This document shows, piece after piece, positions 195-11,002 of a DNA stretch of 11,002 nucleotides. The position numbers and the translations under genes were made by a program. Source of the stretch: Candidatus Omnitrophota bacterium (GTDB lineage Bacteria; Omnitrophota; Koll11; Aquiviventales; Aquiviventaceae); NCBI GenBank assembly GCA_023247285.1, contig JAHFGU010000009.1, forward strand, positions 1-11,002. Direction: 5' to 3'. The number at the start of each line of letters is the position of its first letter. The stretch's first letter is position 1. Below the pieces are notes generated by a model. It did no database searches. It was not told where the DNA came from and worked only from the letters and a program-made list of their open reading frames with translations.

Positions 195-557
195 ATGAAC
201 GTGTTCAATCGGAAAGGGCAAAACACCGCCGAGTACGCCGTGCTGATTGCCGTGGTCGTCGGGGCGATCGTCGCGATGCAGATCTACGTCAAGCGCGGCC
301 TGCAGGCCAAGGTGAAGCACGTGGCGGACCGCGTGGGGGACGGCCTGCTTCAGGCCGGCACCGGCATCACCACGGTCACGGGCCAGTACGAGCCCTACTA
401 CAACAAGGCGGGGTACAAGGTCGTCCAGGACCAGCAGGTGAGAGAGCAGTTTAAGGAGGGCGGGACCGTCCGGCGGGACAGCGACAATGAGACAACGACT
501 CGGACGGGAGGCTCTACGACGGATGTCGAGATGAAGGAGGATAATGACTGGAAATAA
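195..557 (+). CDS. Flp-like pilin, type A (copy A1)
   Basis: A 120-residue prepilin-like protein expected to be cleaved by a TadV-type prepilin peptidase and assembled in, or priming, a Flp pilus. The leader is MNVFNRKG (8 residues), cleavage is predicted as G8|Q9, Glu13 is at +5 and Tyr14 at +6, and a hydrophobic helix runs from about 13 to 32. Then comes the type A signature MQIYVKRGLQ. The C-terminal half is soluble: a QYEPYY motif near residue 72, then a charged Thr/Asn/Asp-rich tail ending EDNDWK. Flp pilins are usually 50-80 residues, so this tail is an added domain that would face outward from the filament. The start is supported by AAAGGAGGG at 177-185. It is followed after 40 bp by type B gene B1, and the same A-B order recurs twice downstream. 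Confidence 0.8.
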   Translation: MNVFNRKGQNTAEYAVLIAVVVGAIVAMQIYVKRGLQAKVKHVADRVGDGLLQAGTGITTVTGQYEPYYNKAGYKVVQDQQVREQFKEGGTVRRDSDNETTTRTGGSTTDVEMKEDNDWK

Positions 558-575: not shown

Positions 576-750
576 TCGAAGGGAGGGGTGAATCCTGATG
601 AACGGCCGCACAGGCCAGAGCACGGTGGAGTACGCGGTCCTCATTGTCGTGGTCATCGCCGCGCTGTTGGCGATGTCCATCTTCATGAAGCGCGGCGTGA
701 TGGGCAAGGCGCGGGAATCGACGAACCAGATCGGCGAGCAGTTCGCTCCG
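576..750 (+). repeat. Near-identical 175-bp duplication, copy 1 (RBS plus 5' half of pilin B1)
   Basis: Matches 1351-1525 with three substitutions in 175 bases. It covers the ribosome binding site, start codon, leader, hydrophobic helix and first polar residues. Similarity falls sharply right after GTTCGCTCCG. The flanking A genes are much more diverged from each other, so this is either a recent local duplication or ongoing gene conversion. Confidence 0.9.
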
Positions 751-912
751 TTCGACACCAAGAACGCCTATACCCGGACGTTTAAGTCGACGCGCAATGA
801 GACGACCAAGGCCAATGGTGAGGGGGGTTCAAAGATCGCGGTGGCGGAGGTTCAGCACAAGACCGGCACGGAGAACGTGACGAAGAGTCTGGACAGCGAC
901 TCCCTCTTCTAA
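598..912 (+). CDS. Flp-like pilin, type B (copy B1)
   Basis: A 104-residue type IVb prepilin-like protein. The leader MNGRTG is only 6 residues. Predicted cleavage is G6|Q7, with Glu11 at +5 and Tyr12 at +6, and the hydrophobic helix covers about 11-31. The type B signature MSIFMKRGVMGK follows, then a polar region with EQFAPF and a YTRTF segment rich in Thr, Lys and Asn. A strong GGGAGGGG at 581-588 supports this ATG. Codons up to about residue 51 are almost identical in DNA to gene B2, while the C-terminal half differs, so the membrane/assembly part is conserved and the exposed part varies. It probably pairs with A1 just upstream. A perfect 9-bp inverted repeat spans its stop codon. Confidence 0.8.
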   Translation: MNGRTGQSTVEYAVLIVVVIAALLAMSIFMKRGVMGKARESTNQIGEQFAPFDTKNAYTRTFKSTRNETTKANGEGGSKIAVAEVQHKTGTENVTKSLDSDSLF

Positions 913-956: not shown

Positions 957-1328
957 ATGACGCTTTTAAACCGCAACGGACAGCAAACCGCCGAGTACGC
1001 CGTGCTGATCGCCGTGGTCGTCGGCGCAGTCGTCGCCATGCAGGTCTACGTGAAGCGGAGCCTGCAGGGGAAAGTGAAGGATGTGACGGACCATGTCGGG
1101 GATAGCCTGGGCACGGACAAGAACCCGGTCCTGAGCCAGTACGAGCCGTACTACAGCGACTCCGGTTACGACGTGACCCAGGCTCAGTCGGTCAATGAGA
1201 AATACCTGGCAGGCGGAAAGGTCGATCGGCTGGCCATCAGCCAGAAGACCACCCGGGAGGTCGACGGGTTTTCCAATACCGGGACCGATCTGACCAAAGA
1301 CGACAAGTGGACGGACACAACCAACTAG
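957..1328 (+). CDS. Flp-like pilin, type A (copy A2)
   Basis: A 123-residue prepilin-like protein paralogous to A1. The leader MTLLNRNG is 8 residues, cleavage is predicted at G8|Q9, Glu13 is at +5, and the helix spans about 13-32, followed by MQVYVKRSLQGKVK. The ectodomain keeps SQYEPYY, a GY-x-V segment and GGKVDR, then diverges into a Thr/Asp/Lys-rich tail ending TDTTN. The start is preceded by a purine-rich AAAGGGGGGAA at about 939-949. By eye, DNA similarity to A1 in the helix-coding part is clearly lower than between B1 and B2, so this A duplication is older or has not been homogenised. It is the first member of the second A-B pair. Confidence 0.8.
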   Translation: MTLLNRNGQQTAEYAVLIAVVVGAVVAMQVYVKRSLQGKVKDVTDHVGDSLGTDKNPVLSQYEPYYSDSGYDVTQAQSVNEKYLAGGKVDRLAISQKTTREVDGFSNTGTDLTKDDKWTDTTN

Positions 1329-1350: not shown

Positions 1351-1525
1351 TCGAAGGGAGGGGTGAATCCTGATGAACGGCCGCACAGGCCAGAGCACGG
1401 TGGAGTACGCGGTCCTCATTGTCGTGATCATCGCCGCGCTGTTGGCGATGTCCATCTTCATGAAGCGCGGCGTGATGGGCAAGGCGCGGGAATCGACGGA
1501 CCAGATCGGCGACCAGTTCGCTCCG
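1351..1525 (+). repeat. Near-identical 175-bp duplication, copy 2 (RBS plus 5' half of pilin B2)
   Basis: Partner of 576-750 at a constant offset of 775 bases. There are three substitutions. One changes the hydrophobic helix (Val to Ile), and two change the following polar segment (Asn to Asp and Glu to Asp). Confidence 0.9.
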
Positions 1526-1693
1526 CTGACCACCACGAATGATTACACGCGGACTTTTGACTCAGAGCGCCACGAGAGGACCCAGACGGACGGTATAGCC
1601 TTTTCCACGATCACCAAAGCGGAGATCCAGGACAGAAAGGGGCATGAGGATCTGACTGAGGGTCTGAAGGACGAGAAACTCTTCAAAAAATAG
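1373..1693 (+). CDS. Flp-like pilin, type B (copy B2)
   Basis: A 106-residue prepilin-like protein, sister of B1. The leader MNGRTG, cleavage at G6|Q7, Glu11 at +5 and the helix at about 11-31 are the same, with the signature MSIFMKRGVMGK. It keeps DQFAP and a DYTRTF segment. The rest is a charged, Thr/Lys/Glu-rich tail ending EKLFKK that differs from B1. GGGAGGGG sits 9-10 bases before the ATG, as in B1. The mature N-termini of B1 and B2 are nearly the same, so both should fit the same position in a filament, while the exposed surface differs. It is the second member of the second A-B pair. Confidence 0.8.
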   Translation: MNGRTGQSTVEYAVLIVVIIAALLAMSIFMKRGVMGKARESTDQIGDQFAPLTTTNDYTRTFDSERHERTQTDGIAFSTITKAEIQDRKGHEDLTEGLKDEKLFKK

Positions 1694-1792: not shown

Positions 1793-2365
1793 ATGGCTCA
1801 AGGCGCAAGGCTCAAGGCCCGCCCGGCTGAAGGCTCAAGTTGGCTCAAGGCTCAGGGCTCAAGGCTCAAGGCTGGAGAACGAGCCTTCAGCCTTCGGCGG
1901 TCTTCGGCGGCGAGCGGACAGTCGCTGGCGGAATACTCGCTGGTGCTGGCGCTGGTGGCGGCGGCGATGATGGGGATGCAGGTCTACGCCAAGCGGGGGA
2001 TCCAGGCCGCGCTGAAGATCGCGTCGGATGATCTGAGCCCTTGCCGCGTGCATGCGTGTTTCGGCGCCGTGGGTGACCCGGACGGCGAACTCGGCCAGCT
2101 CATCGGCGAAGTTCAAGAAGGCGGGCTTACGGAGGAAGAAAGGCTGAGGGAACCCGCGTTGCGTCAGGGGTTGGTGCTGGATCGGCTCTCGCTGGATCGG
2201 CTCTCGAGGGTGACCACCGTCACGGATCAATCCGTCCTGGACGAGGAGCTGCCCGGCGGCGGACGCACGAGGACCGTGGAGCGGGAGCGCGTCTCCTCGA
2301 GGGGGGCGTTGGGGGATGGCGTGTCATCCGTGTCGTCGGTCGTGGTGGACGCGAACCCGCAATGA
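1793..2365 (+). CDS. Flp-like pilin, type A (copy A3), with repeat-encoded long leader
   Basis: A 190-residue protein when read from ATG 1793; a GTG at 1730 and an ATG at 1769 are in frame and possible. The pilin core starts at G42|Q43, with Glu47 at +5 and Tyr48, a hydrophobic helix at about 47-66, then the type A signature MQVYAKRGIQ. Residues 2-35 are encoded by a heptanucleotide-repeat element and read RLKAR...GSRLKA. Start 1793 is preferred because it lies exactly 900 bases before the start of the TadE-like gene, and the shared 88-bp repeat begins 15 bases after both starts; GGGGGG at 1782-1787 could serve as ribosome binding site. The C-terminal domain, about 120 residues, is Glu/Arg/Leu-rich with a doubled LDRLS and differs from A1 and A2. 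The final TGA overlaps the next ATG (ATGA). Confidence 0.72.
   Translation: MAQGARLKARPAEGSSWLKAQGSRLKAGERAFSLRRSSAASGQSLAEYSLVLALVAAAMMGMQVYAKRGIQAALKIASDDLSPCRVHACFGAVGDPDGELGQLIGEVQEGGLTEEERLREPALRQGLVLDRLSLDRLSRVTTVTDQSVLDEELPGGGRTRTVERERVSSRGALGDGVSSVSSVVVDANPQ
1795..1895 (+). repeat. Heptanucleotide inverted-repeat element 1, inside pilin A3 leader
   Basis: Degenerate GGCTCAA units run from the G of the start codon to about 1874. A short inverted arm GAGCCTTCAGCCTTC follows at 1881-1895. The core can fold as a hairpin: 1861-1873 against 1882-1894 with one mismatch in 13 and an 8-base loop. The inverted arm is shorter than in element 2, as if truncated, and is followed by a GC-rich CTTCGGCGG doublet. 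It is read in frame, giving a basic leader. Confidence 0.85.
1808..1895 (+). repeat. 88-bp exact direct repeat, copy 1
   Basis: Base-for-base identical to 2708-2795, at an offset of exactly 900. The copy lies in the same reading frame and at the same distance from the start codon in both genes. A further short match (GCGGTCTTC) follows in both leaders. Confidence 0.95.
2177..2206 (+). repeat. In-frame 15-bp tandem duplication in pilin A3
   Basis: Two exact copies of CTGGATCGGCTCTCG, encoding LDRLS twice in the C-terminal domain of A3. This is a recent slippage-type expansion that keeps the frame. Confidence 0.85.
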
Positions 2366-2709
2366 ACCCGCGCGGACCGGCGTCCAGGGGGCAAACGGCC
2401 GTGGAGTACGCCGTGTTGTTCACCGCCGTCTGTGCGGCGCTGCTGAGCATGTCCGTGTACATGAAGCGGGGCGTCTCAGGCCACCTGCGTAGAACGTCGG
2501 ACTCGATCGGGGAGCAGTACGGGCCGGGCTCGACCACGTCCAGTTTGCGGACCACCCTGACGTCCACGAGCACCACGAGTTCTGAGCGCTCCAACGTGGA
2601 CCTGGACGGTGATGGAATCTGGGATGCGGGCGTGATGGAGACCGTCACGACCATCGATGCGCCGGAAACCACAAGCCGGACGGGAAGCGAGCATGTCGAT
2701 CCTCAATAG
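2362..2709 (+). CDS. Flp-like pilin, type B (copy B3), with DxDxDG loop
   Basis: A 115-residue prepilin-like protein. The leader is MNPRGPASRG, cleavage G10|Q11, Glu15 at +5 and Tyr16 at +6, helix about 15-34. The type B signature MSVYMKRGVSGH and EQYGPG follow. The ectodomain opens with a Ser/Thr run (about residues 57-75) and then has D80-x-D-x-D-G (DLDGDGIWD), the pattern of an EF-hand or thrombospondin type 3 calcium-binding loop. Calcium binding is inferred from this short motif only. The start overlaps the A3 stop as ATGA, and the end overlaps the TadE-like gene by 17 bases, so all three are probably translated in coupled fashion. It completes the third A-B pair; it is more diverged from B1/B2 than those are from each other. 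Confidence 0.78.
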   Translation: MNPRGPASRGQTAVEYAVLFTAVCAALLSMSVYMKRGVSGHLRRTSDSIGEQYGPGSTTSSLRTTLTSTSTTSSERSNVDLDGDGIWDAGVMETVTTIDAPETTSRTGSEHVDPQ

Positions 2710-3931
2710 GCTCAAGGCCCGCCCGGCTGAAGGCTCAAGTTGGCTCAAGGCTCAGGGCTCAAGGCTCAAGGCTGGAGAACGAGCCTTCAGCCTTCAGCCT
2801 AGAGCCTTCAGCCAGGTGAGCCTCGAGCCTCGAGCCTCGAGCCTTGAGCGGTCTTCACGGGGTCAGGCCCTGCTCGAGCTGGCCATTGTGGGTTCGCTGA
2901 TCGTTACGATGTTGGGATGGCTCGTCAACTATGCTATGCGCGCAGATTTCGAACAGTACGGCCAGATGGAATCCTTCCGCGCTGCGCTGGCCATGACCTC
3001 GGAGCCGCTGGACGACACGCTGCGCGGCGCCGGCAATGTGCTGATCCTGCGGGACCGGCATGTGCCGGACCCGGCTCACCCGTTTGCGGTCGGACAGGTG
3101 ACGCCGATCACCGGCTCGGCGAGCGCCACGCGTGACGTGCAAATGTACAGGGGGCCCATTGAGACCAGCCATCTGCCGCGCGTTCGCCTGAACCTTGATG
3201 GGCAACCCTTCGACTGCGGCAGCGCGGGCGGGAGCTGCGCGACGGCGGGTTTCCGCGACGAACCCGGCTTTGAGAGCTCGAGCGAGCAGCGCTACAAGCT
3301 GATCTACAGCGCGGTATGCACCTCGCCAGATTGCGGGACAAGCCCGGCTGTCTGCACCGAGTGGGAGACCGTCACGGATCCAGATCCGTACGCCGGCGGC
3401 CAGACATCGACCAACTGCGTCCGGTACACGATGTCGGTCCGGGTGCTCGATGCCTGCGAGGGCGAGATCATCAATTACGATATCTGCACCAAGCAGGCCC
3501 GCATGATCGTGGACTCGGCCATGTGCGAGCGGGAATGCCGCAAGGAGAAGCCGGTGACAGGAGGGTTTGACTACTGCGCGACCATCTGCGCGCAGGCCAT
3601 CAAGCCGCCATGGTACGCCCAAGACGCGGTGCAGTCCCGGGATGGGCGCTGGATCTTCCCGCGTCTCGATGCCCTGTTCGCGGGCACCGGAAGTCGAATG
3701 GGCCTGCAACCGGGTTCGGTGACGGTCGTCAGGGCCGACCATCGGATGGACAAGACCGAATCCCCTGCGGCGATCACGACGACCGCGTCCGGAAGCTCCG
3801 TACATGAAATCACCCGGACCATGGTGTGGTCGCCGCTGGCGGAGGGCGGCACCCGTGTGCAAGCCCGGGATGAGCACGTGACGCGGACCAAAGAGGTCAA
3901 GACCGAGAATTCATGGACCGTCAACTGGTAA
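2693..3931 (+). CDS. TadE-like pseudopilin with cysteine-rich ectodomain and repeat-encoded leader
   Basis: A 412-residue protein. The processed core begins at G57|Q58 with Glu62 at +5 (GQALLELAIVGS, a TadE-type N-terminus) and a hydrophobic helix to about residue 82. TadE-family pseudopilins are prepilin peptidase substrates needed for Flp assembly. Residues 1-6 (MSILNR) resemble the leaders of A1 and A2. Residues 7-53 are encoded by repeat element 2, inserted exactly between that leader and the cleavage site. The exported part, about 330 residues, has 12 cysteines, most between about 180 and 300, suggesting disulfides outside the cytoplasm. The tail is Thr/Arg/Glu-rich and ends WTVNW. ATG 2693 is chosen over an in-frame ATG at 2657 because of the MSILNR match and the GGGAAG just upstream. 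Typical TadE proteins are much shorter (under 200 residues). Confidence 0.7.
   Translation: MSILNRLKARPAEGSSWLKAQGSRLKAGERAFSLQPRAFSQVSLEPRASSLERSSRGQALLELAIVGSLIVTMLGWLVNYAMRADFEQYGQMESFRAALAMTSEPLDDTLRGAGNVLILRDRHVPDPAHPFAVGQVTPITGSASATRDVQMYRGPIETSHLPRVRLNLDGQPFDCGSAGGSCATAGFRDEPGFESSSEQRYKLIYSAVCTSPDCGTSPAVCTEWETVTDPDPYAGGQTSTNCVRYTMSVRVLDACEGEIINYDICTKQARMIVDSAMCERECRKEKPVTGGFDYCATICAQAIKPPWYAQDAVQSRDGRWIFPRLDALFAGTGSRMGLQPGSVTVVRADHRMDKTESPAAITTTASGSSVHEITRTMVWSPLAEGGTRVQARDEHVTRTKEVKTENSWTVNW
2708..2795 (+). repeat. 88-bp exact direct repeat, copy 2
   Basis: Identical to 1808-1895. Both copies start 15 bases after the start codon of a pilin-class gene, in the same frame. Confidence 0.95.
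2708..2848 (+). repeat. Heptanucleotide inverted-repeat element 2, inside TadE-like leader
   Basis: The left arm consists of GGCTCAA / GGCTGAA units (about 2709-2773). After an 8-base spacer, the right arm has complementary units TTCAGCC, TAGAGCC, TCGAGCC and TTGAGC (about 2782-2848). It is the longest symmetric copy among the three pilin-leader elements. The left arm reads as GSRLKAQ-like basic heptads and the right arm as SLEPRA-like heptads. The frame stays open. Confidence 0.88.
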
Positions 3932-4302
3932 CAAGCGCTCAAGGCTCAACATTGGCTCGAGGCTCAAGGCTCGAGGCTCAAGGCTCGAGGCTCAAGGCCC
4001 ACCTGGCTGAAGGCTCTAGGCTGAAGGCTGAAGGCTGCGGCTCTCGTTGCCTAGAGCCTAGAGCCATGAGCCTGGAGCCAGGGCAGGCGAGCATCGAGAT
4101 GGCCGTCGCCATGATCCTCAGTCTGCTCCTGATGGGGTTTTGCGCGAAAATTTGCTTCTGGTTTGCGGAGCGCTTCGTCCTCCGCCAACAGGCGTATGAG
4201 GAAACCCGGACGGATGCGGCCAACAGGCCAGGCATGACGCCGTGGGTGGAGCTGTTCGAGAAGCTCACGGTCGTCGATTCGGGGACCTCCGGCACGCGAT
4301 GA
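3913..4302 (+). CDS. Short TadE/TadF-like pseudopilin with repeat-encoded leader
   Basis: A 129-residue protein from ATG 3913, which lies inside the end of the TadE-like gene. The pilin-like core is G57|Q58 with Glu62 at +5 (GQASIEMAVAM), followed by a hydrophobic helix to about residue 80 and a short basic/polar tail. This fits a minor pseudopilin of the TadE/F kind with almost no ectodomain. Repeat element 3 encodes nearly all of residues 9-56. A second in-frame ATG at 4066 sits within the repeat and would give MSLEPG|Q, a leader of normal length; no good ribosome binding site precedes it, but it may be the true or an alternative start. The stop overlaps the TadG-like start (ATGA). Family assignment beyond pseudopilin is uncertain. 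Confidence 0.62.
   Translation: MDRQLVTSAQGSTLARGSRLEAQGSRLKAHLAEGSRLKAEGCGSRCLEPRAMSLEPGQASIEMAVAMILSLLLMGFCAKICFWFAERFVLRQQAYEETRTDAANRPGMTPWVELFEKLTVVDSGTSGTR
3937..4079 (+). repeat. Heptanucleotide inverted-repeat element 3, inside TadE/F-like leader
   Basis: It begins 6 bases after the TadE-like stop codon. Left-arm units GGCTCAA / GGCTCGA alternate, followed by GGCTGAA. Right-arm units TAGAGCC, ATGAGCC and TGGAGCC lie at 4049-4079. GGCTCTAGGC at 4012-4021 pairs perfectly with GCCTAGAGCC at 4049-4058 or 4056-4065. One right-arm unit supplies an in-frame ATG (4066). Confidence 0.86.
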
Positions 4303-7300
4303 TGAGACGGTGGCCGATGCCGAGCTTGCTCGCTCGCATTTCCTCGAAGCGGCCGGGCGGGCAAATTGCGACCTTTCTCCTGCTGCTCGTGATGGTCGTG
4401 CTGATTTTCGCTCTGGTAGTGATGAATCTCGGGCGGGTGGCGTCGAGCTCCACGACGGTGGCCAACGCGGCGGACGGTGCCGCGCTCTCCATCGCTTCGC
4501 AGCTGGCCTCACGCTCGAATCAGCTGTGCTATGGGATCGGCAAGAAGACCGGTGAGTGCCTGACGGAGCGGTGCCAGAAAACCGGGATTTTGCCCGTGGT
4601 CCTGGCCGTCATTGCCGCGGTGGTGGTGACGATTGCGACGGGCGGGTTCGGGGCGCCGCTCAGCATGCATATGGTCACCCATATGCTGCTGCCGGCCATC
4701 ATCGCGGGCGCAGCCGGCGGGGCCATCGGCGGGGCCATCACCGGCACCGGGACCGTCAAGGGCGCTCTGTGGGGCGCGATGATCGGGGCCGGCATCGCCG
4801 GCGCCTCAGGGATCGCCGGGCATGGATTTCTGGGTCACCTGGGGACCGTCGCGAAAACTCCACTGCAAGTAACTCTATCTGGGGCTGCGACGCTTGGTGA
4901 TACAACGATCAAGGTCGCCGCGGCGTCCGCGGTGTACACGGGGCTGGGATCAGGTCTTGCAGCCGGGTTTGCCGGGGCTGTCGCCGCAGATGCCATCCAT
5001 CAGAACTACATGATCGATCAGGCGATCGGAGAGCGGTTCGCGACCGCGGCCAAGGCGCTCAACGGCTTGCCGGATTACGAGCAGATCCGGGAAGGGGCGC
5101 TGTTTCAGGCGCTGGCGCAAACGGTGGATGACCCAAACTTCACGGGCCAGCAATGCCATTGGGTCGATCCAGCAGGCACCACGCTCAACATCGCCGTCGG
5201 GGGCGATCCGTTCGATTCGGATGCGGACGGCAACACCCGGGAAAAGATCCCGTGCTTCCAGTATTGGTGGGACCGGCGCAGCCAGCTGCTGATTGCGGGC
5301 CTGAAGCGCGAAGGGCCCGGCGATATCATCAGGCTGTACCTTGACAGCCGAAGCGGGCTGATCACGGAGTTTCGGAATCGCGCGCGGGAATTTCTGCACG
5401 AGCTCGAGCGCACGGAGATCGAGTGCCCGTGCAAGCAGACGGAGACCGGGGTGAATCCCGAAGGCCGTCTCATGCAGGTGTGGCGCGCGTTTGACAAGCA
5501 GCTCGGCACGGGCGCCGTGGGGTTCTGGAAGCCTGGGCCTGACCAAGCCGGGGCGCGCGCGTGGTACGAGCTGGACACCTGCCCATCGTGCGACACCACC
5601 CCACCCCCTGAGGGCTGGGATTCGGCAGATGCGGTGCGCCTGACGTATGAACAGCTCCTGGAGTATCTCAAGGCGCTGATCTGGAACGTTGAGCTGTTCG
5701 GCGGCGAGAGTGAAGCCGCGTTTATTTATGAGCTTCGCTATTATCAAAATTGGTTTCCCCACCTCTACAACCCCACCCAAGAGGAGGAAACAAACGGGAG
5801 CTTCCACACCCTGTTCGGGGCCGTCCTCGACGGCGATGACGGACTCGTGGGGATGAGGAAATGGCCCGAGCAGACCCTCATGGCGCAAAGCCGGCTGCCG
5901 GGCTGCTCCATCGACTACGGCTCGTATCCGGCCATGGAGTCCGTGACCTCGAGGCCGCCGGATCCGCCCACTTGCGCGAACGAAGAGCCGATCGATAACT
6001 GCACGTGGGATCAGCCTGAGGTGGCGACCGAAAACGGCGTGCACTTCCGCGACAACCAGTTCACCGATCCCGCCGCCCCGCCCGGCTTCCCCGGGCCGAC
6101 CTGCAAGATCGACGCAGGCCACCGGACGAACCTCTTGAACCAGATGGCCGCCGTGGGACAGCGGGTCAAGGAGCTGCCCGCGTACATCGCCGCCAACCTG
6201 CAACGGCTGGTGCCGGTCACCTGCGCGGAAGGGGCGTTTGATCCCGACTCAGTGAAGGTATCGAATCTCCAGGTGGCGTTGGACAACCCGCCGGCCACGC
6301 TGAAATACCGCTTCGACTATTCGTATAAGTGCGCCGGCATCGGCAGAGCATGTAACGATGCCAAGGAACTCGCGTGCGGCGAAGGGGAAGCCTGCCCGAC
6401 GTGCGAATGCGATCCGAACTCGCCAGGACCGAATTGTCGGTTGACCAGCAGCAACATTACGCGGAATGATTCCACGTGCGTTACATGCGACTACTGCTGC
6501 GCAACGGGGCTGGATCCCATCACCGGCCTCCCAGTCTGCACCGCGACGTGCCAGGCGCCCGTGGGTAGCTGCTCCTTTGAGAAGTCGAACGTCTATGCGT
6601 GCAGAACCGAGGGACAGAGCCCGGTGATCCCGGAAGATATCGCGGCGCCGAATGTGCGCATCCCCAGCCCGCTCATGCCGGCTGGGACCTTCCTCGGCAT
6701 CCTGGGCCAGATGCAGGCTACCGTCCGCCCACTGCCGTTTTCGTTCGCCACAATCAACGCCGATACGAAGGATGAGCTGACCCCCCTGCTCGAGCTTCTG
6801 GATGACCAAGTCAGGTATGTCCAAGGCTTCCGGTCAAATCTAGAGGCGATGTACGCGCAGTTGCAAGGGTTGAGCAGCAAGATCCCGCCGGCGCAGGATG
6901 GGCGACTGCCGAATCCGAACCAGCTGGTGCCGCCTGCCGACTGGCCGCTGTTTGGCACGGTCTATAACGGGCGGTACGCATGGGAAGACACGCACGGCCA
7001 GCACACCGTGGAGGTGGAGATCGGGCCCTTCCACCTCGCCTTTACCGAGAAGCGCAAGCATGGGAGCATCTGGAAGGGCAGGGTGTGCTTGGAGCTGATC
7101 GATTACTGCGACGGACTGGACGCGGGGGATTCGAAGAATCGGGAGAACTGCAACGACAAGTGCTGCTACGAATTTGACAAGGGTCACTTGCCGGGGGATA
7201 CCTTCGTGCGCATCACGCGCACCGACCCCCGGGGGCCGGAGATGGGCCTGCTGTGGCGGCTCAATCCGTTAGGGTTGCGGACGCGGAAGACCGCCAGAGT

Positions 7301-7346
7301 CAGGTACCATACGCAGTTCGTCGGACTGGAGTCCACGCGCAACTGA
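4299..7346 (+). CDS. Very large TadG-like pilus assembly protein
   Basis: A 1015-residue protein from ATG 4299, chosen because it overlaps the previous stop as ATGA; a second ATG follows at 4302. The N-terminus matches TadG-like proteins: basic residues, G-G-Q22, a hydrophobic helix at about 23-45, then AADGAALS at 57-64, the position of the family's AADAAALA motif. TadG acts in Flp pilus biogenesis at the envelope. Next is a Gly/Ala-rich hydrophobic stretch (about 97-185) with repeated GxxxG-like spacing, which may be membrane-embedded. Residues 306-311 read DSDADG, a calcium-loop pattern. A cysteine-rich block lies at about 677-767 with CxxC and CC pairs, and more cysteines occur at 77, 87, 92 and in CPC/CPSC motifs. 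Tad-type proteins are usually 400-600 residues and often have a VWA domain; I see no clear MIDAS motif. Confidence 0.68.
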   Translation: MMRRWPMPSLLARISSKRPGGQIATFLLLLVMVVLIFALVVMNLGRVASSSTTVANAADGAALSIASQLASRSNQLCYGIGKKTGECLTERCQKTGILPVVLAVIAAVVVTIATGGFGAPLSMHMVTHMLLPAIIAGAAGGAIGGAITGTGTVKGALWGAMIGAGIAGASGIAGHGFLGHLGTVAKTPLQVTLSGAATLGDTTIKVAAASAVYTGLGSGLAAGFAGAVAADAIHQNYMIDQAIGERFATAAKALNGLPDYEQIREGALFQALAQTVDDPNFTGQQCHWVDPAGTTLNIAVGGDPFDSDADGNTREKIPCFQYWWDRRSQLLIAGLKREGPGDIIRLYLDSRSGLITEFRNRAREFLHELERTEIECPCKQTETGVNPEGRLMQVWRAFDKQLGTGAVGFWKPGPDQAGARAWYELDTCPSCDTTPPPEGWDSADAVRLTYEQLLEYLKALIWNVELFGGESEAAFIYELRYYQNWFPHLYNPTQEEETNGSFHTLFGAVLDGDDGLVGMRKWPEQTLMAQSRLPGCSIDYGSYPAMESVTSRPPDPPTCANEEPIDNCTWDQPEVATENGVHFRDNQFTDPAAPPGFPGPTCKIDAGHRTNLLNQMAAVGQRVKELPAYIAANLQRLVPVTCAEGAFDPDSVKVSNLQVALDNPPATLKYRFDYSYKCAGIGRACNDAKELACGEGEACPTCECDPNSPGPNCRLTSSNITRNDSTCVTCDYCCATGLDPITGLPVCTATCQAPVGSCSFEKSNVYACRTEGQSPVIPEDIAAPNVRIPSPLMPAGTFLGILGQMQATVRPLPFSFATINADTKDELTPLLELLDDQVRYVQGFRSNLEAMYAQLQGLSSKIPPAQDGRLPNPNQLVPPADWPLFGTVYNGRYAWEDTHGQHTVEVEIGPFHLAFTEKRKHGSIWKGRVCLELIDYCDGLDAGDSKNRENCNDKCCYEFDKGHLPGDTFVRITRTDPRGPEMGLLWRLNPLGLRTRKTARVRYHTQFVGLESTRN

Positions 7347-8392: not shown

Positions 8393-9268
8393 ATGGACAT
8401 CCAGGCCGCACAACTCTATTGCGTGGCGATGACGACGACGGGCGCCGGGGCCGTCGCCGTCTACCCGAGCCTCGTGCGCGCAATCGAGCGCTGGACGCAG
8501 CCGATCGCCGACTACCAGGCAGGGAAGGTCAGCCGGGCCGCGCGCCTGCTGGACGACATCTTCATGGAGGTCAAACCCACCTGGCTCAAGGCGGCCTACG
8601 GCCTCGGGCCGGTGGCGGTGGGATTTCTCATCTACGTGCTGTTCCAGAGCCTGCCGATCGCGATCCTCGCCGCCGTGGCCGGCATCATCGTGCCGGATCT
8701 GATCGTGCGGCAGGTCAAGGCGGCCAGGAAGAACAAGTTCCGCGGGCAGCTGGTCGACACGCTCTTCCTCCTGGCCAGCAGCATGAAGGCGGGGCTCTCG
8801 CTGCCGCAGGCCTTCGAAGTGGTGGAGGCGGAGATGCCCCCGCCGGTCTCGCAGGAATTCGGGCTGATGCTCAAAGCGCACCGCGTGGGCCGCACCTTCG
8901 AGGAAGCGCTGCAGCGCCTCAACGAGCGGATGAGCTGCGAGGAGGTGGAGCTGATCACGACCGCACTCCTGGTGGCCCGGGAGACCGGCGGCGACGTCAC
9001 GACGATCATCCAGCAGCTGATCATGACCATCCGCGAAAAGAAGAAGGTGCTGGACAAGGTAAAGACGCTCACGCTGCAGGGCAAGCTGCAGGCCTACATC
9101 ATGAGCTTCCTGCCGGTGGGCTTCGCGGTCTTCATCAAGGCGTTCAACCCCACCTATTTTGATCCGCTGCTGCACTATCCGGTCGGCCACCTGCTCGTCG
9201 GGATCGCCGTGCTGTTGTGGCTCTGCGGCATGGTGCTGCTGCTGAAGCTCTCCAAGGTGGATATCTGA
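8393..9268 (+). CDS. tadB: TadB-like inner-membrane platform protein (T2SSF/GspF domain)
   Basis: A 291-residue membrane protein of the type II secretion F (GspF/PilC) superfamily. With TadC it forms the platform that couples the TadA ATPase to pilin polymerisation. Membrane segments are at about 71-85, 86-104, 233-250 and 265-287. The cytoplasmic T2SSF domain lies at about 117-235 and includes QLVDTLFLLASSMKAGLSL, a family-typical helix in which the chain is presented as a small bundle, and LVARETGGDV. The helix 226-240 leads back into the membrane. Length and topology fit TadB, which usually has about 300 residues. It starts 7 bases after the previous stop, and its own stop overlaps the next start by one base. 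The gene symbol is assigned by order (first of the B-C pair) and family resemblance. Confidence 0.85.
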   Translation: MDIQAAQLYCVAMTTTGAGAVAVYPSLVRAIERWTQPIADYQAGKVSRAARLLDDIFMEVKPTWLKAAYGLGPVAVGFLIYVLFQSLPIAILAAVAGIIVPDLIVRQVKAARKNKFRGQLVDTLFLLASSMKAGLSLPQAFEVVEAEMPPPVSQEFGLMLKAHRVGRTFEEALQRLNERMSCEEVELITTALLVARETGGDVTTIIQQLIMTIREKKKVLDKVKTLTLQGKLQAYIMSFLPVGFAVFIKAFNPTYFDPLLHYPVGHLLVGIAVLLWLCGMVLLLKLSKVDI

Positions 9269-10206
9269 TGAGCGCCTCGCTTGCGACGATCCAGCCGATG
9301 ATCAATCAGGCGCTGCTGGTCGTGATTGATGCGATGGGATTCCTGTCGCTGGCATGCCTGGCCTGGGCGGTCTTCCCGCAGCCGGCCCTCGAGCTGCCCG
9401 GCTTCATCGGCGGCCAGGACGATCCAGCGCTCGGCCCGGGCGGCCGGCCGAGGCGGCGCCGGGCGCTGAAGCGCCTGGTGGCCCGCCTGGGCAGGGCCAT
9501 CACGCGCGGCGAGATCATGGGCGAGCTGGCCAAACCGAGGCTCATCTACACCGGTTCGCAGATGACCGTGCTGGAGTTCAACGGCGTGCGGGTGCTCTGC
9601 GGGCTCTTCGGCGCGTTCGCAGGGCTGGTGCTGCTGCGCGACTTCAAGCAGCTGCCGCCGTCCCTGGTGATCATCGCCGTGGCCGTGGGGCTGCTCGCGC
9701 CGAGCCTGTGGCTGAAGGCCAAGGTCGCCGCGCGGCAAAAGGCGATCCTGCGGTTGCTGCCCGAGATGGTGGATCTGCTCTCCCTGTGCATCGGCGCCGG
9801 GCTGGACTTCTTGATGGCGCTGAACAAGGTGGTGAGCCTCAAGAAGATCCAGAAGGAGCCGCTCATCGAAGAGCTGGCGGTCGCCTTGCAGGAGATCAAG
9901 TTCGGCAAACGCCGCATGGAGGCCCTGAAGGCGATGGCCAAGCGGGTGAATCTGCCGGAGATCTCCTCCTTCGTGCGCACCGTGACACAGGCGGATCGGA
10001 TGGGCACGCCGGTCGGCGAGGTGCTCGCCATGCACTCGGAGGACGTCCGCGGCGGGCGGCTGATGCGGGCGGAGCGGGAGGCGCTGAAAGCGCCGATCAA
10101 AATTCTCGTTCCGCTCATCTTCTTCATCATGCCGTGCGTGGCGATCGTGGTTGGGGCACCCATCTTCATCCAGTTTATGACGCAGAGCCCGTTTGGGAAA
10201 CAGTGA
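9268..10206 (+). CDS. tadC: TadC-like inner-membrane platform protein (T2SSF/GspF domain)
   Basis: A 312-residue protein, second of the T2SSF pair. Membrane segments are at about 12-37, 107-123, 131-148 and 277-304. A basic, Arg-rich cytoplasmic stretch (about 60-80) follows the first. The T2SSF domain (about 160-290) contains LLPEMVDLLSLCIGAGLDF, the form typical of TadC, and later RMGTPVGEVL and an AEREALKAPIK-(I)-LVPL segment, also characteristic. It probably pairs with TadB to make the pilus platform. The start ATG 9268 overlaps the TadB stop (TGATG) and is preferred to an upstream GTG at 9217 inside TadB. It is the last clear pilus gene in the window; an 83-bp gap follows. Confidence 0.85.
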   Translation: MSASLATIQPMINQALLVVIDAMGFLSLACLAWAVFPQPALELPGFIGGQDDPALGPGGRPRRRRALKRLVARLGRAITRGEIMGELAKPRLIYTGSQMTVLEFNGVRVLCGLFGAFAGLVLLRDFKQLPPSLVIIAVAVGLLAPSLWLKAKVAARQKAILRLLPEMVDLLSLCIGAGLDFLMALNKVVSLKKIQKEPLIEELAVALQEIKFGKRRMEALKAMAKRVNLPEISSFVRTVTQADRMGTPVGEVLAMHSEDVRGGRLMRAEREALKAPIKILVPLIFFIMPCVAIVVGAPIFIQFMTQSPFGKQ

Positions 10207-10289: not shown

Positions 10290-11002
10290 ATGCGAATCGA
10301 TAAGTGGTTAAAGCTTAAGCGGACGAAGGCCCTGTGCGTCGGGCTGGCGGCCCTGTTCGGGGCTGAGCAGGCGGTCTGGGGCGCTGACGTCAACGCGCTC
10401 CAGGCGCTGCGCGTCTCGGCGGAGCAGGAGCGGCAATTTGATACCGTCCGCTCGGCCGCCGTCATCACCATCTACGATGACCTCTACGGCCGCGCGCCCA
10501 CCAGCCAGGAATTAAAGGAAGCGCTTGAATTTCTGAAGCGCTCGCCGCAGCTGGCCCACCTGGTGGAGCGCCTCTCTGAGTCTCCGGAGTCCCGCTGGCG
10601 CCTGCGCCAGCTCAATCCCGAACGGATCAAGCAGCGCAAGGAAGCCGCGGCCCGCATCAGCGAGGCGGTCAGCCGCCAAGTGGGAGATTTCTTACGGCGG
10701 CCGGCTCAAGGCTCAAGGCTCGAGGCTCGAGGCTACGAGGTCCGCAGCCTTCAGCCTTCAGCCTCGAGCCTTGAGCGCATTCAGATTGCGCCGAACCTGT
10801 CGGTGCAAGCGGAACCGGCTGTCCTGGCGCGCCTGAACGAGGGCACGATCAGCGAGCTGGAGGCCTGGCTCCGCCAGCCCGAGACCTTGTGCTCGAATTG
10901 CGCGCCGAGCGCGTTGGCGCCGATGCTTGGCATGGTGGGCATTCCGGCCTCCCGCGAGACGCTCACTACGCAGGCGTTTCTCGTTGACTACCTCTCCGGC
11001 AA
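10290..11002 (+). CDS. Secreted protein, possible C39-like cysteine peptidase, N-terminal part
   Basis: Open from ATG 10290 through the window end, 237 residues visible. A Sec-type signal peptide fits residues 1-31: basic MRIDKWLKLKRTK, hydrophobic ALCVGLAALFGA, and a WGA|D cleavage region. Residues 60-102 (IYDDLYGRAPTSQELKEALE...SPE) resemble the DUF4214-type repeat pattern Y-x-x-L-x-G-R-x-P-(8)-L. A helical, charged region follows to about 135. Residues 139-163 are encoded by repeat element 4 and look like a linker. Then LCSNCAPSALAPMLGMVGI (200-218) resembles the catalytic Cys region of peptidase C39-like domains (C-G-x-x-A-L-x-x-x-L-x-x-x-G), with Cys204 as candidate nucleophile. The His and Asp partners would be beyond the window. 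The start has no strong ribosome binding site. The peptidase call is inference. Confidence 0.55.
   Translation, partial: MRIDKWLKLKRTKALCVGLAALFGAEQAVWGADVNALQALRVSAEQERQFDTVRSAAVITIYDDLYGRAPTSQELKEALEFLKRSPQLAHLVERLSESPESRWRLRQLNPERIKQRKEAAARISEAVSRQVGDFLRRPAQGSRLEARGYEVRSLQPSASSLERIQIAPNLSVQAEPAVLARLNEGTISELEAWLRQPETLCSNCAPSALAPMLGMVGIPASRETLTTQAFLVDYLSG
10703..10776 (+). repeat. Heptanucleotide inverted-repeat element 4, inside the secreted protein gene
   Basis: The 31-nt left arm (10704-10734: two GCTCAAG, two GCTCGAG, GCT) faces the 31-nt right arm (10746-10776), which is its reverse complement at 26 of 31 positions, around an 11-base loop. Arms consist of the same heptamer family as elements 1-3. 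The frame is kept, encoding QGSRLEARG then LQPSASSLER between two putative domains. Confidence 0.9.

Follow-up and report, generated by a model that had tools for sequence, protein, structure and literature searches.

The window analyzed here, an 11,002-nucleotide (nt) stretch of the Candidatus Omnitrophota contig JAHFGU010000009.1, carries a Tad-type pilus locus comprising pairs of A and B pilin genes, two TadE-like genes, and genes for a TadG-like protein and a T2SSF protein. In three of its pilin-class genes, A3, TadE1 and TadE2, an element built of 7-nt tandem units with inverted arms lies in frame between the start codon and the G|Q motif of the prepilin. A sequence-only reading of the window had reported such elements in these leaders and put their length at 100–145 bp; their presence, frame and position are borne out, and the length was roughly right, the actual values (116, 143 and 146 nt) running slightly longer. 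Where 1.73 copies of the heptamer GGCTCAA would be expected, the window has 20, and the array scanner found eight period-7 arrays, against none in 100 dinucleotide shuffles. A 91-nt block is common to elements 1 (A3) and 2 (TadE1) with 99% identity. There was no Rfam covariance-model match in the window at gathering scores.

The frame used by the host gene is open through all four elements of the window. Among the three coding-strand frames, it is the only open one in elements 2 and 3, and one of two in elements 1 and 4. On reading the A3 sequence, no in-frame ATG, GTG or TTG was seen between position 1793 and the glycine codon. TadE1 could alternatively start at a GTG (2815) that is in frame and falls within element 2. 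The translation test comprised 24 elements, 22 from relatives and two from the window; A3 stands outside it because its hydrophobicity of 1.67 is below the cut of 1.8. Stop codons were present in the used frame of a single element out of 24, compared with 20 of the 48 other frames, and ATG, GTG or TTG codons between the element and the glycine were absent in 22 of the 24. With the used frame open in 23 of 24 elements and a start codon behind the element nearly always absent, the repeats are therefore normally translated as leader.

The features of the window are collected in Table 1. The prepilin pattern, in which a leader ending in G is followed by x4-E and a hydrophobic stretch, is present in GQSLAEY, GQALLELA and GQASIEM, the motifs behind elements 1, 2 and 3, respectively. 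Neither TadE1 nor TadE2 had a Pfam match at E 0.1, and both names are given by motif and position. The leaders of the neighboring pilins without an element, previously described as 6–8 residues long, in fact measure 5 (B1, B2), 7 (A1, A2) and 9 (B3) residues. B1 and B2 have identical leaders and are near-identical over their first 40 residues, with diverged C-terminal parts. The start of A1, taken as a comparison for the RNA folds, gave a z of 0.03.

Table 1. Genes and heptamer elements of the window (positions in nt; z, RNA fold score)
Feature	Position	Strand	Description
Pilin A1	195..557	+	7-residue plain leader MNVFNRK|GQNTAEY; Class_IIIsignal match under its cut-off
Pilin B1	598..912	+	5-residue plain leader MNGRT|GQSTVEY; TadE match under its cut-off
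Pilin A2	957..1328	+	7-residue plain leader
Pilin B2	1373..1693	+	5-residue plain leader
Pilin A3	1793..2365	+	41-residue leader, mostly element 1-encoded, then GQSLAEY; no Pfam match
Element 1	1795..1910	+	116 nt, A3 leader; GGCTCAA heptamers and inverted GCCTTCA arm; used frame open; z -2.0
Pilin B3	2362..2709	+	9-residue plain leader; Class_IIIsignal and Flp_Fap matches under their cut-offs
TadE1	2693..3931	+	56-residue leader MSILN[element]SSR|GQALLELA; TadE-like by motif and position
Element 2	2708..2850	+	143 nt, TadE1 leader; heptamers and inverted arms; arrays of 32 nt at 2782-2813 and 2818-2849; z -7.1
TadE2	3913..4302	+	Small, TadE-like by motif; 56-residue leader (5 if from ATG 4066), then GQASIEM
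Element 3	3934..4079	+	146 nt, TadE2 leader; GGCTCAA/GGCTCGA heptamers and inverted GCCTAGA arm; z -3.8
TadG-like protein	4302..7346	+	PF13400 above its cut-off; period-7 array not found
T2SSF-domain protein	9268..10206	+	PF00482; TadB/TadC-like, same locus
Very long gene, 5' end	10290..11002	+	Holds element 4; G001 orthologue has an open frame of 8665 aa
Element 4	10703..10776	+	74 nt; two heptamer arms of 32 nt, 10 nt apart; in frame, interior of long non-pilin gene; z -6.1

Genomes, loci and proteins of relatives are referred to below by the prefixes G, L and P. A protein search with TadE1 listed 28 sequences, one of which (P0001, 99% identical) is probably the window's own protein or nearly so. 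Both of the named homologues are from Candidatus Omnitrophica, and 10 of the 11 named loci belong to Omnitrophota. The peptide part ahead of the conserved GQALLELA differs among the homologues, and at the peptide level it looks repeat-encoded, in differing ways, in P0003, P0004, P0008, P0012, P0014, P0019, P0024 and P0028. At the DNA level, L001 has a GTCTCAT array ahead of its TadE1 orthologue and a CACTCCG array ahead of its TadE2 orthologue, and L011 has GATTGTC-type arrays ahead of its TadE1 and of an apparent TadE2. Scans of genome contigs with the TadB/TadC-like protein yielded no relative, and a scan of viral contigs with one GGCTCAA-type pattern yielded no match.

For a view of the leader across relatives, 30 of at least 61 matches to TadE1-like loci were taken; L211, L217, L219 and L222 yielded no leader and a second match in L203 was ignored, leaving 26 loci, some of which align to the model over its N-terminal part only and some of which are close kin (L199/L200; L213–L216). 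Strong arrays, with heptamers differing from those of the window, are present in two of the 26 (L198, which is L001, and L223, which is L011). The L207 leader contains weak period-7 sequence. In 19 of the 26 loci, as we read them, a methionine lies 3 to 14 residues ahead of the glycine and there is no array. Orthologous pilins both with and without an array exist among relatives, and given the short, array-free leaders of these 19 loci, the insertion is the derived state, again in agreement with the sequence-only reading.

The distribution of elements relative to genes was analyzed in parts of three relatives, G001 (215,919 bases), G002 (106,204 bases) and G010 (368,284 bases), with the first 5170 bases of L001 left out of the enrichment counts (overlap with L045). 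Period 7 is dominant among periods 5 to 11 in these sequences, as is period 8 in G001 and G002; in L002–L004, period 7 is equaled or exceeded by period 8 and partly also by periods 4 and 12. Each of the three genomes has several heptamer families and, independent of sequence, array length peaks at 30–33 nt (58 of 99 period-7 arrays). A purine-rich 5' arm was considered as a general rule and rejected: it holds for 9 of the 11 elements with two arms in G001 and G002 and fails for those of G010.

Of the 89 period-7 and period-8 elements in the three relatives, 22 lie within 130 nt ahead of a prepilin glycine. By genome, this is 6 of 17 elements in G001, in 2730 of 215,919 bases (1.3%; 28-fold enrichment over the overall rate), 8 of 24 in G002, in 3008 of 106,204 bases (12-fold), and 8 of 48 in G010, in 3770 of 368,284 bases (16-fold), with p ranging from 4e-8 to 2e-7. 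The element ends no more than 13 nt ahead of the glycine codon in 16 of the 22 cases; MKKRR[LVTGYWSLVT]TR|GQSTLEY (L001) and MSSTGEQRSKVKGQRLKVSGLHLSPFTFHLSPWYR|AFTLVEL (L095) are examples of the resulting leaders. Counted per gene, elements are carried by 6/21, 8/24 and 8/29 prepilins in G001, G002 and G010, respectively, versus 5/149, 9/74 and 15/255 other genes; pooled, the figures are 22/74 and 29/478 (odds 6.6, p = 2.5e-8), with a larger control window for the other genes (280 nt) than for prepilins (130 nt). The leader window is also 4.3 times denser in elements than intergenic DNA, where 30 were counted over 56,435 bases (p = 1.2e-6); with the leader restricted to 27 nt, the ratio is 15. 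When the discovery loci L001 and L011 are left out, G001 and G010 together have 8 of 51 elements ahead of glycines, in 5070 of 548,125 bases (17-fold, p = 2.4e-8), and per gene 8/39 prepilins versus 17/389 others (p = 8e-4); G002 without L002 has 8 of 21 (22-fold). Placement at random with respect to gene position, which had been named as fatal to the idea of leaders as a landing site, was not what the sampled parts of G001, G002 and G010 contained.

At L095 (10411–11061), adjacent prepilin genes have an identical 77-nt element and similar flanks with different mature parts, which suggests that the leader region was copied. At L044 (4447–4472), a heptamer array seems to be part of a lipoprotein-like signal peptide (MKTRRWFIIPLIILHSSLITSLTGCES).

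Elements unrelated to the heptamer arrays occupy the same position. In P0021, a TadE1 homologue, a GIY-YIG domain is found ahead of the conserved part. Including P0021, 40 GIY-YIG proteins were long enough for fusions, in a search whose length filter favors fusions; 24 of the 40 by rule, and 26 by eye, run into a prepilin motif and hydrophobic stretch, about five continue into a signal-peptide-like stretch, and three are of uncertain assignment. In the genome sample, the frame of the close GIY-YIG family is open into a prepilin at 2 of the 11 loci read (L114, L133). The GIY-YIG gene can sit inside a terminal inverted repeat (TIR) element, CCCCGTTAGAGA...TCTCTAACGGGG, belonging to a family of 31 to 284 nt of which some copies have this gene and whose end often lies shortly before a start codon (L113–L116, L119, L120, L133, L134, L154, L171, L174, L175, L179, L181, L183, L184, L187, L195). 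The end sequence is present in 40 of 141 Omnitrophota genomes, and 4 of the 54 ends read abut a prepilin motif (L195–L197 are outside these 54 and were included in the later locus reading). The same 4 nt stand on both flanks in 10 of 18 distinct paired copies and differ in the other 8. In the paired prepilin cases (L114, L133, L154), the 4 nt repeated on both sides are TTTA, taken from the G-F-T codons, and since the last codons of the element, CTA ACG GGG, read L-T-G, the glycine before the cut is restored. Genes of the GxxExxY type continue into TadE1 in P0018, into a Flp-type pilin in P0068 and into an apparent signal-peptide protein in P0069. GxxExxY domains also share a single protein with other Pfam domains in P0070–P0074, presumably of glycosyltransferase or RecG-like type to go by their accessions. 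Finally, the leader of the TadE1 orthologue at L204 is encoded by a different palindrome, TCATTGCGAG...CTCGCAATGA, which we take to be a common bacterial palindromic repeat.

Element 4 belongs to a different setting, a linker behind FLR in the giant protein. In L001 (16195) and L002 (13562), the slot behind ...FLR is taken by other heptamers, and in L054 (3152) by a window-like one, so that heptamer inserts of at least three sequence families are found there in four genomes. Either an old element may have been kept with turnover of its sequence, or the slot may have been hit repeatedly.

The explanation we favor, and consider likely, is that these are invasive in-frame repeats that persist at sites where their product is removed by processing, and that may be placed there preferentially. 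Hairpin elements of 7-nt tandem units, with arrays peaking at 30–33 nt and often paired as inverted arms, would spread within genomes, a mobility that we infer. An element landing in frame between the start codon and the prepilin G|Q or G|F codons would add its residues to the leader, a part expected to remain cytoplasmic and to be removed by the prepilin peptidase. The mature pilin would be unchanged, and the insertion would therefore survive. As to the shares of survival and preferred placement, the 4.3-fold density of leaders over intergenic DNA makes survival alone probably insufficient, and copying between leaders, as in the 91-nt block of A3 and TadE1 and the identical L095 elements, or biased insertion may contribute. 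Taken together, the observations suggest that parasitic DNA can find a safe harbor in removable leaders. The sequence-only reading had called the leader a safe landing site for an invasive repeat; the enrichment, the short, array-free leaders at 19 of the 26 loci and the elements of other sequence in the L001 and L011 leaders speak for this, yet the elements are not confined to leaders, as element 4 demonstrates.

Several observations weigh against this explanation. Of the elements in the three relatives, 30 are intergenic and 22 lie in the interiors of open reading frames (ORFs), by crude ORF calls. The three genomes were picked for arrays already seen, in G002 already at prepilins, and prepilins were called with a regular expression plus a hydrophobicity threshold, a procedure that missed A3 of the window itself. 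Without L001, the per-gene excess in G001 is weak (2/12 versus 4/142, p = 0.07), and some leader copies, namely those of the L095 and L094 pairs, are probably duplicates. Strong arrays are rare among the 26 TadE1-like loci, and 29 N_methyl loci of the phylum (84 kb, 60 prepilins), a sample biased toward short leaders, contained two elements in all, both at prepilins. The loci examined in G005 and G006 had no array near prepilins, and in G004 (L032) two arrays end ~60 nt ahead of the motif, before a short plain leader, and are non-coding. No transposase linked to the heptamers and no empty/filled pair of near-identical strains was found, and a check by eye for target duplications of the heptamer elements was negative. 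Heptamer elements are rare in Omnitrophota outside the element-rich relatives. Fourteen loci from the genome of L010 (titled Planctomycetales) had no elements, and since 37 of the 38 genomes in the "phylum" sample built around L010 were already in an earlier genome sample, the heptamer result is limited to Omnitrophota.

The strongest competitor, which we regard as a serious possibility though somewhat less than an even one, is pure tolerance, whereby insertion is random and leaders tolerate elements just as spacers do, with no bias to leaders. It overlaps with the survival component of the preferred explanation, and the elements in spacers, at gene starts and in the giant-protein linker speak for it; the excess of the leader window over intergenic DNA (4.3-fold, or 15-fold with the 27-nt leader) speaks against it. 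That comparison is not decisive, however, since compact genomes also place constraints on their intergenic DNA. Far less probable is a functional leader or RNA hairpin, in which selection would maintain a long basic leader or stem-loop because it delays processing of minor pilins or adjusts their translation. The strong hairpins of three window elements out of four (z -3.8 to -7.1) fit this idea, as does a leader density above that of intergenic DNA, but the orthologues vary in sequence, peptide and presence of the element, like elements occur in other genes and spacers, and adjacent pilins lack them. The sequence-only reading had offered such a use as its alternative; no evidence for it was found, and the heptamer sequence, and hence the peptide, differs between orthologues.

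It is more doubtful still that the start codons are wrong, with the element forming a 5' untranslated region and translation beginning behind it. TadE2 has an in-frame ATG at 4066, within the 3' arm of element 3, which would yield MSLEP|GQASIEM and place the start behind most of the element, a point that also counts against the preferred explanation; L103 has a TTG behind its element, and the G004 arrays precede the start. The general lack of start codons between element and glycine (22/24) and the open used frame (23/24) argue otherwise. Least probable of all is phase variation, in which gain or loss of a heptamer, 7 not being a multiple of 3, would shift the frame and switch the pilin on or off: the location of the array between start and mature part and the periods of 7 and 8, rather than 6 or 9, would suit it, but half of the elements (12 of 24) are free of stops in all frames over their own length, the two copies in the window are equal in length over 91 nt, and the hairpin form and intergenic copies are left unexplained.

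Beyond the heptamer elements, we tentatively put forward, at slightly less than even likelihood, that prepilin leaders, and perhaps the n-regions of Sec signal peptides, are a general and convergent harbor for selfish DNA: unrelated elements, from heptamer hairpins to whole nuclease genes, would insert directly ahead of the cleavage glycine, be translated and then be discarded by the host's leader peptidase, much like inteins but without splicing. The TIR/GIY-YIG family goes furthest toward such a leader-harbored life, in that its own end supplies a new cleavage glycine (L114, L133, L154). In-frame selfish repeats are already known in Rickettsia. A protein position that collects several unrelated classes of element because its product is cut away would, if true, be a new rule for mobile DNA in coding sequence; odd, long, repeat-encoded prepilin leaders and the GIY-YIG and GxxExxY "fusions" in databases would then be insertion scars and not functional domains. 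The idea also makes testable the tolerance of prepilin peptidase for leaders of 40 to over 100 residues.

Among known systems, inteins and homing-endonuclease genes place a nuclease gene in frame in a host gene and have its product removed from the precursor. The GIY-YIG elements of the relatives are likewise in frame in a host gene, and their product would likewise be removed from the precursor; the difference is that removal would be carried out by the host prepilin peptidase and not by splicing. The STRR sequences of cyanobacteria are heptanucleotide tandem repeats that are mainly non-coding. They and the TAACTGA repeats resemble the present arrays in their 7-nt unit, few copies per array, many arrays per genome and frequent location near gene starts; unlike STRR, the present arrays are in Omnitrophota relatives and are coding within leaders. 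The TAACTGA repeats of Beggiatoaceae introduce stops when read forward, the majority of their sets lie entirely in intergenic DNA, and one inverted repeat is reported (PMC4679880). In contrast, many of the arrays described here are coding, often with paired inverted arms, and have many sequences.

Bacterial miniature inverted-repeat transposable elements (MITEs) such as ERIC, Correia/NEMIS and YPAL are described, in the accessible part of one account, as small stem-loops with reading frames that become joined to host genes, in one case contributing part of a signal peptide (PMC2229807). The heptamer elements are likewise small stem-loops fused in frame to host genes, but no common terminal repeat or target duplication was recognized for them. 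That same part of PMC2229807 makes no mention of an excess at prepilin leaders, nor do the titles and abstract openings listed in searches of the open-access literature mention repeats or elements in prepilin leaders. The closest parallel is with the palindromic elements of Rickettsia and the palindromic repeats of Wolbachia, which measure ~105–146 bp and occur both in frame in protein genes and in intergenic DNA (PMC2229807, PMC2996958). Elements 1–3 are palindromic stem-loops of 116–146 nt, element 4 being shorter (74 nt); those in the window are in frame in protein genes, and related ones are also intergenic. By this analogy, the heptamer elements would work like the Rickettsia palindromic elements, a likeness that implies no claim of membership. 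They differ in that the host is not Rickettsia, the relatives being Omnitrophota, and in that their arms consist of tandem arrays with a 7-nt unit, in many different sequences. Known palindromic elements are reported, in the portion consulted, from assorted positions, typically in non-structured segments (PMC2996958), whereas the insertions described here accumulate before the prepilin cleavage site.

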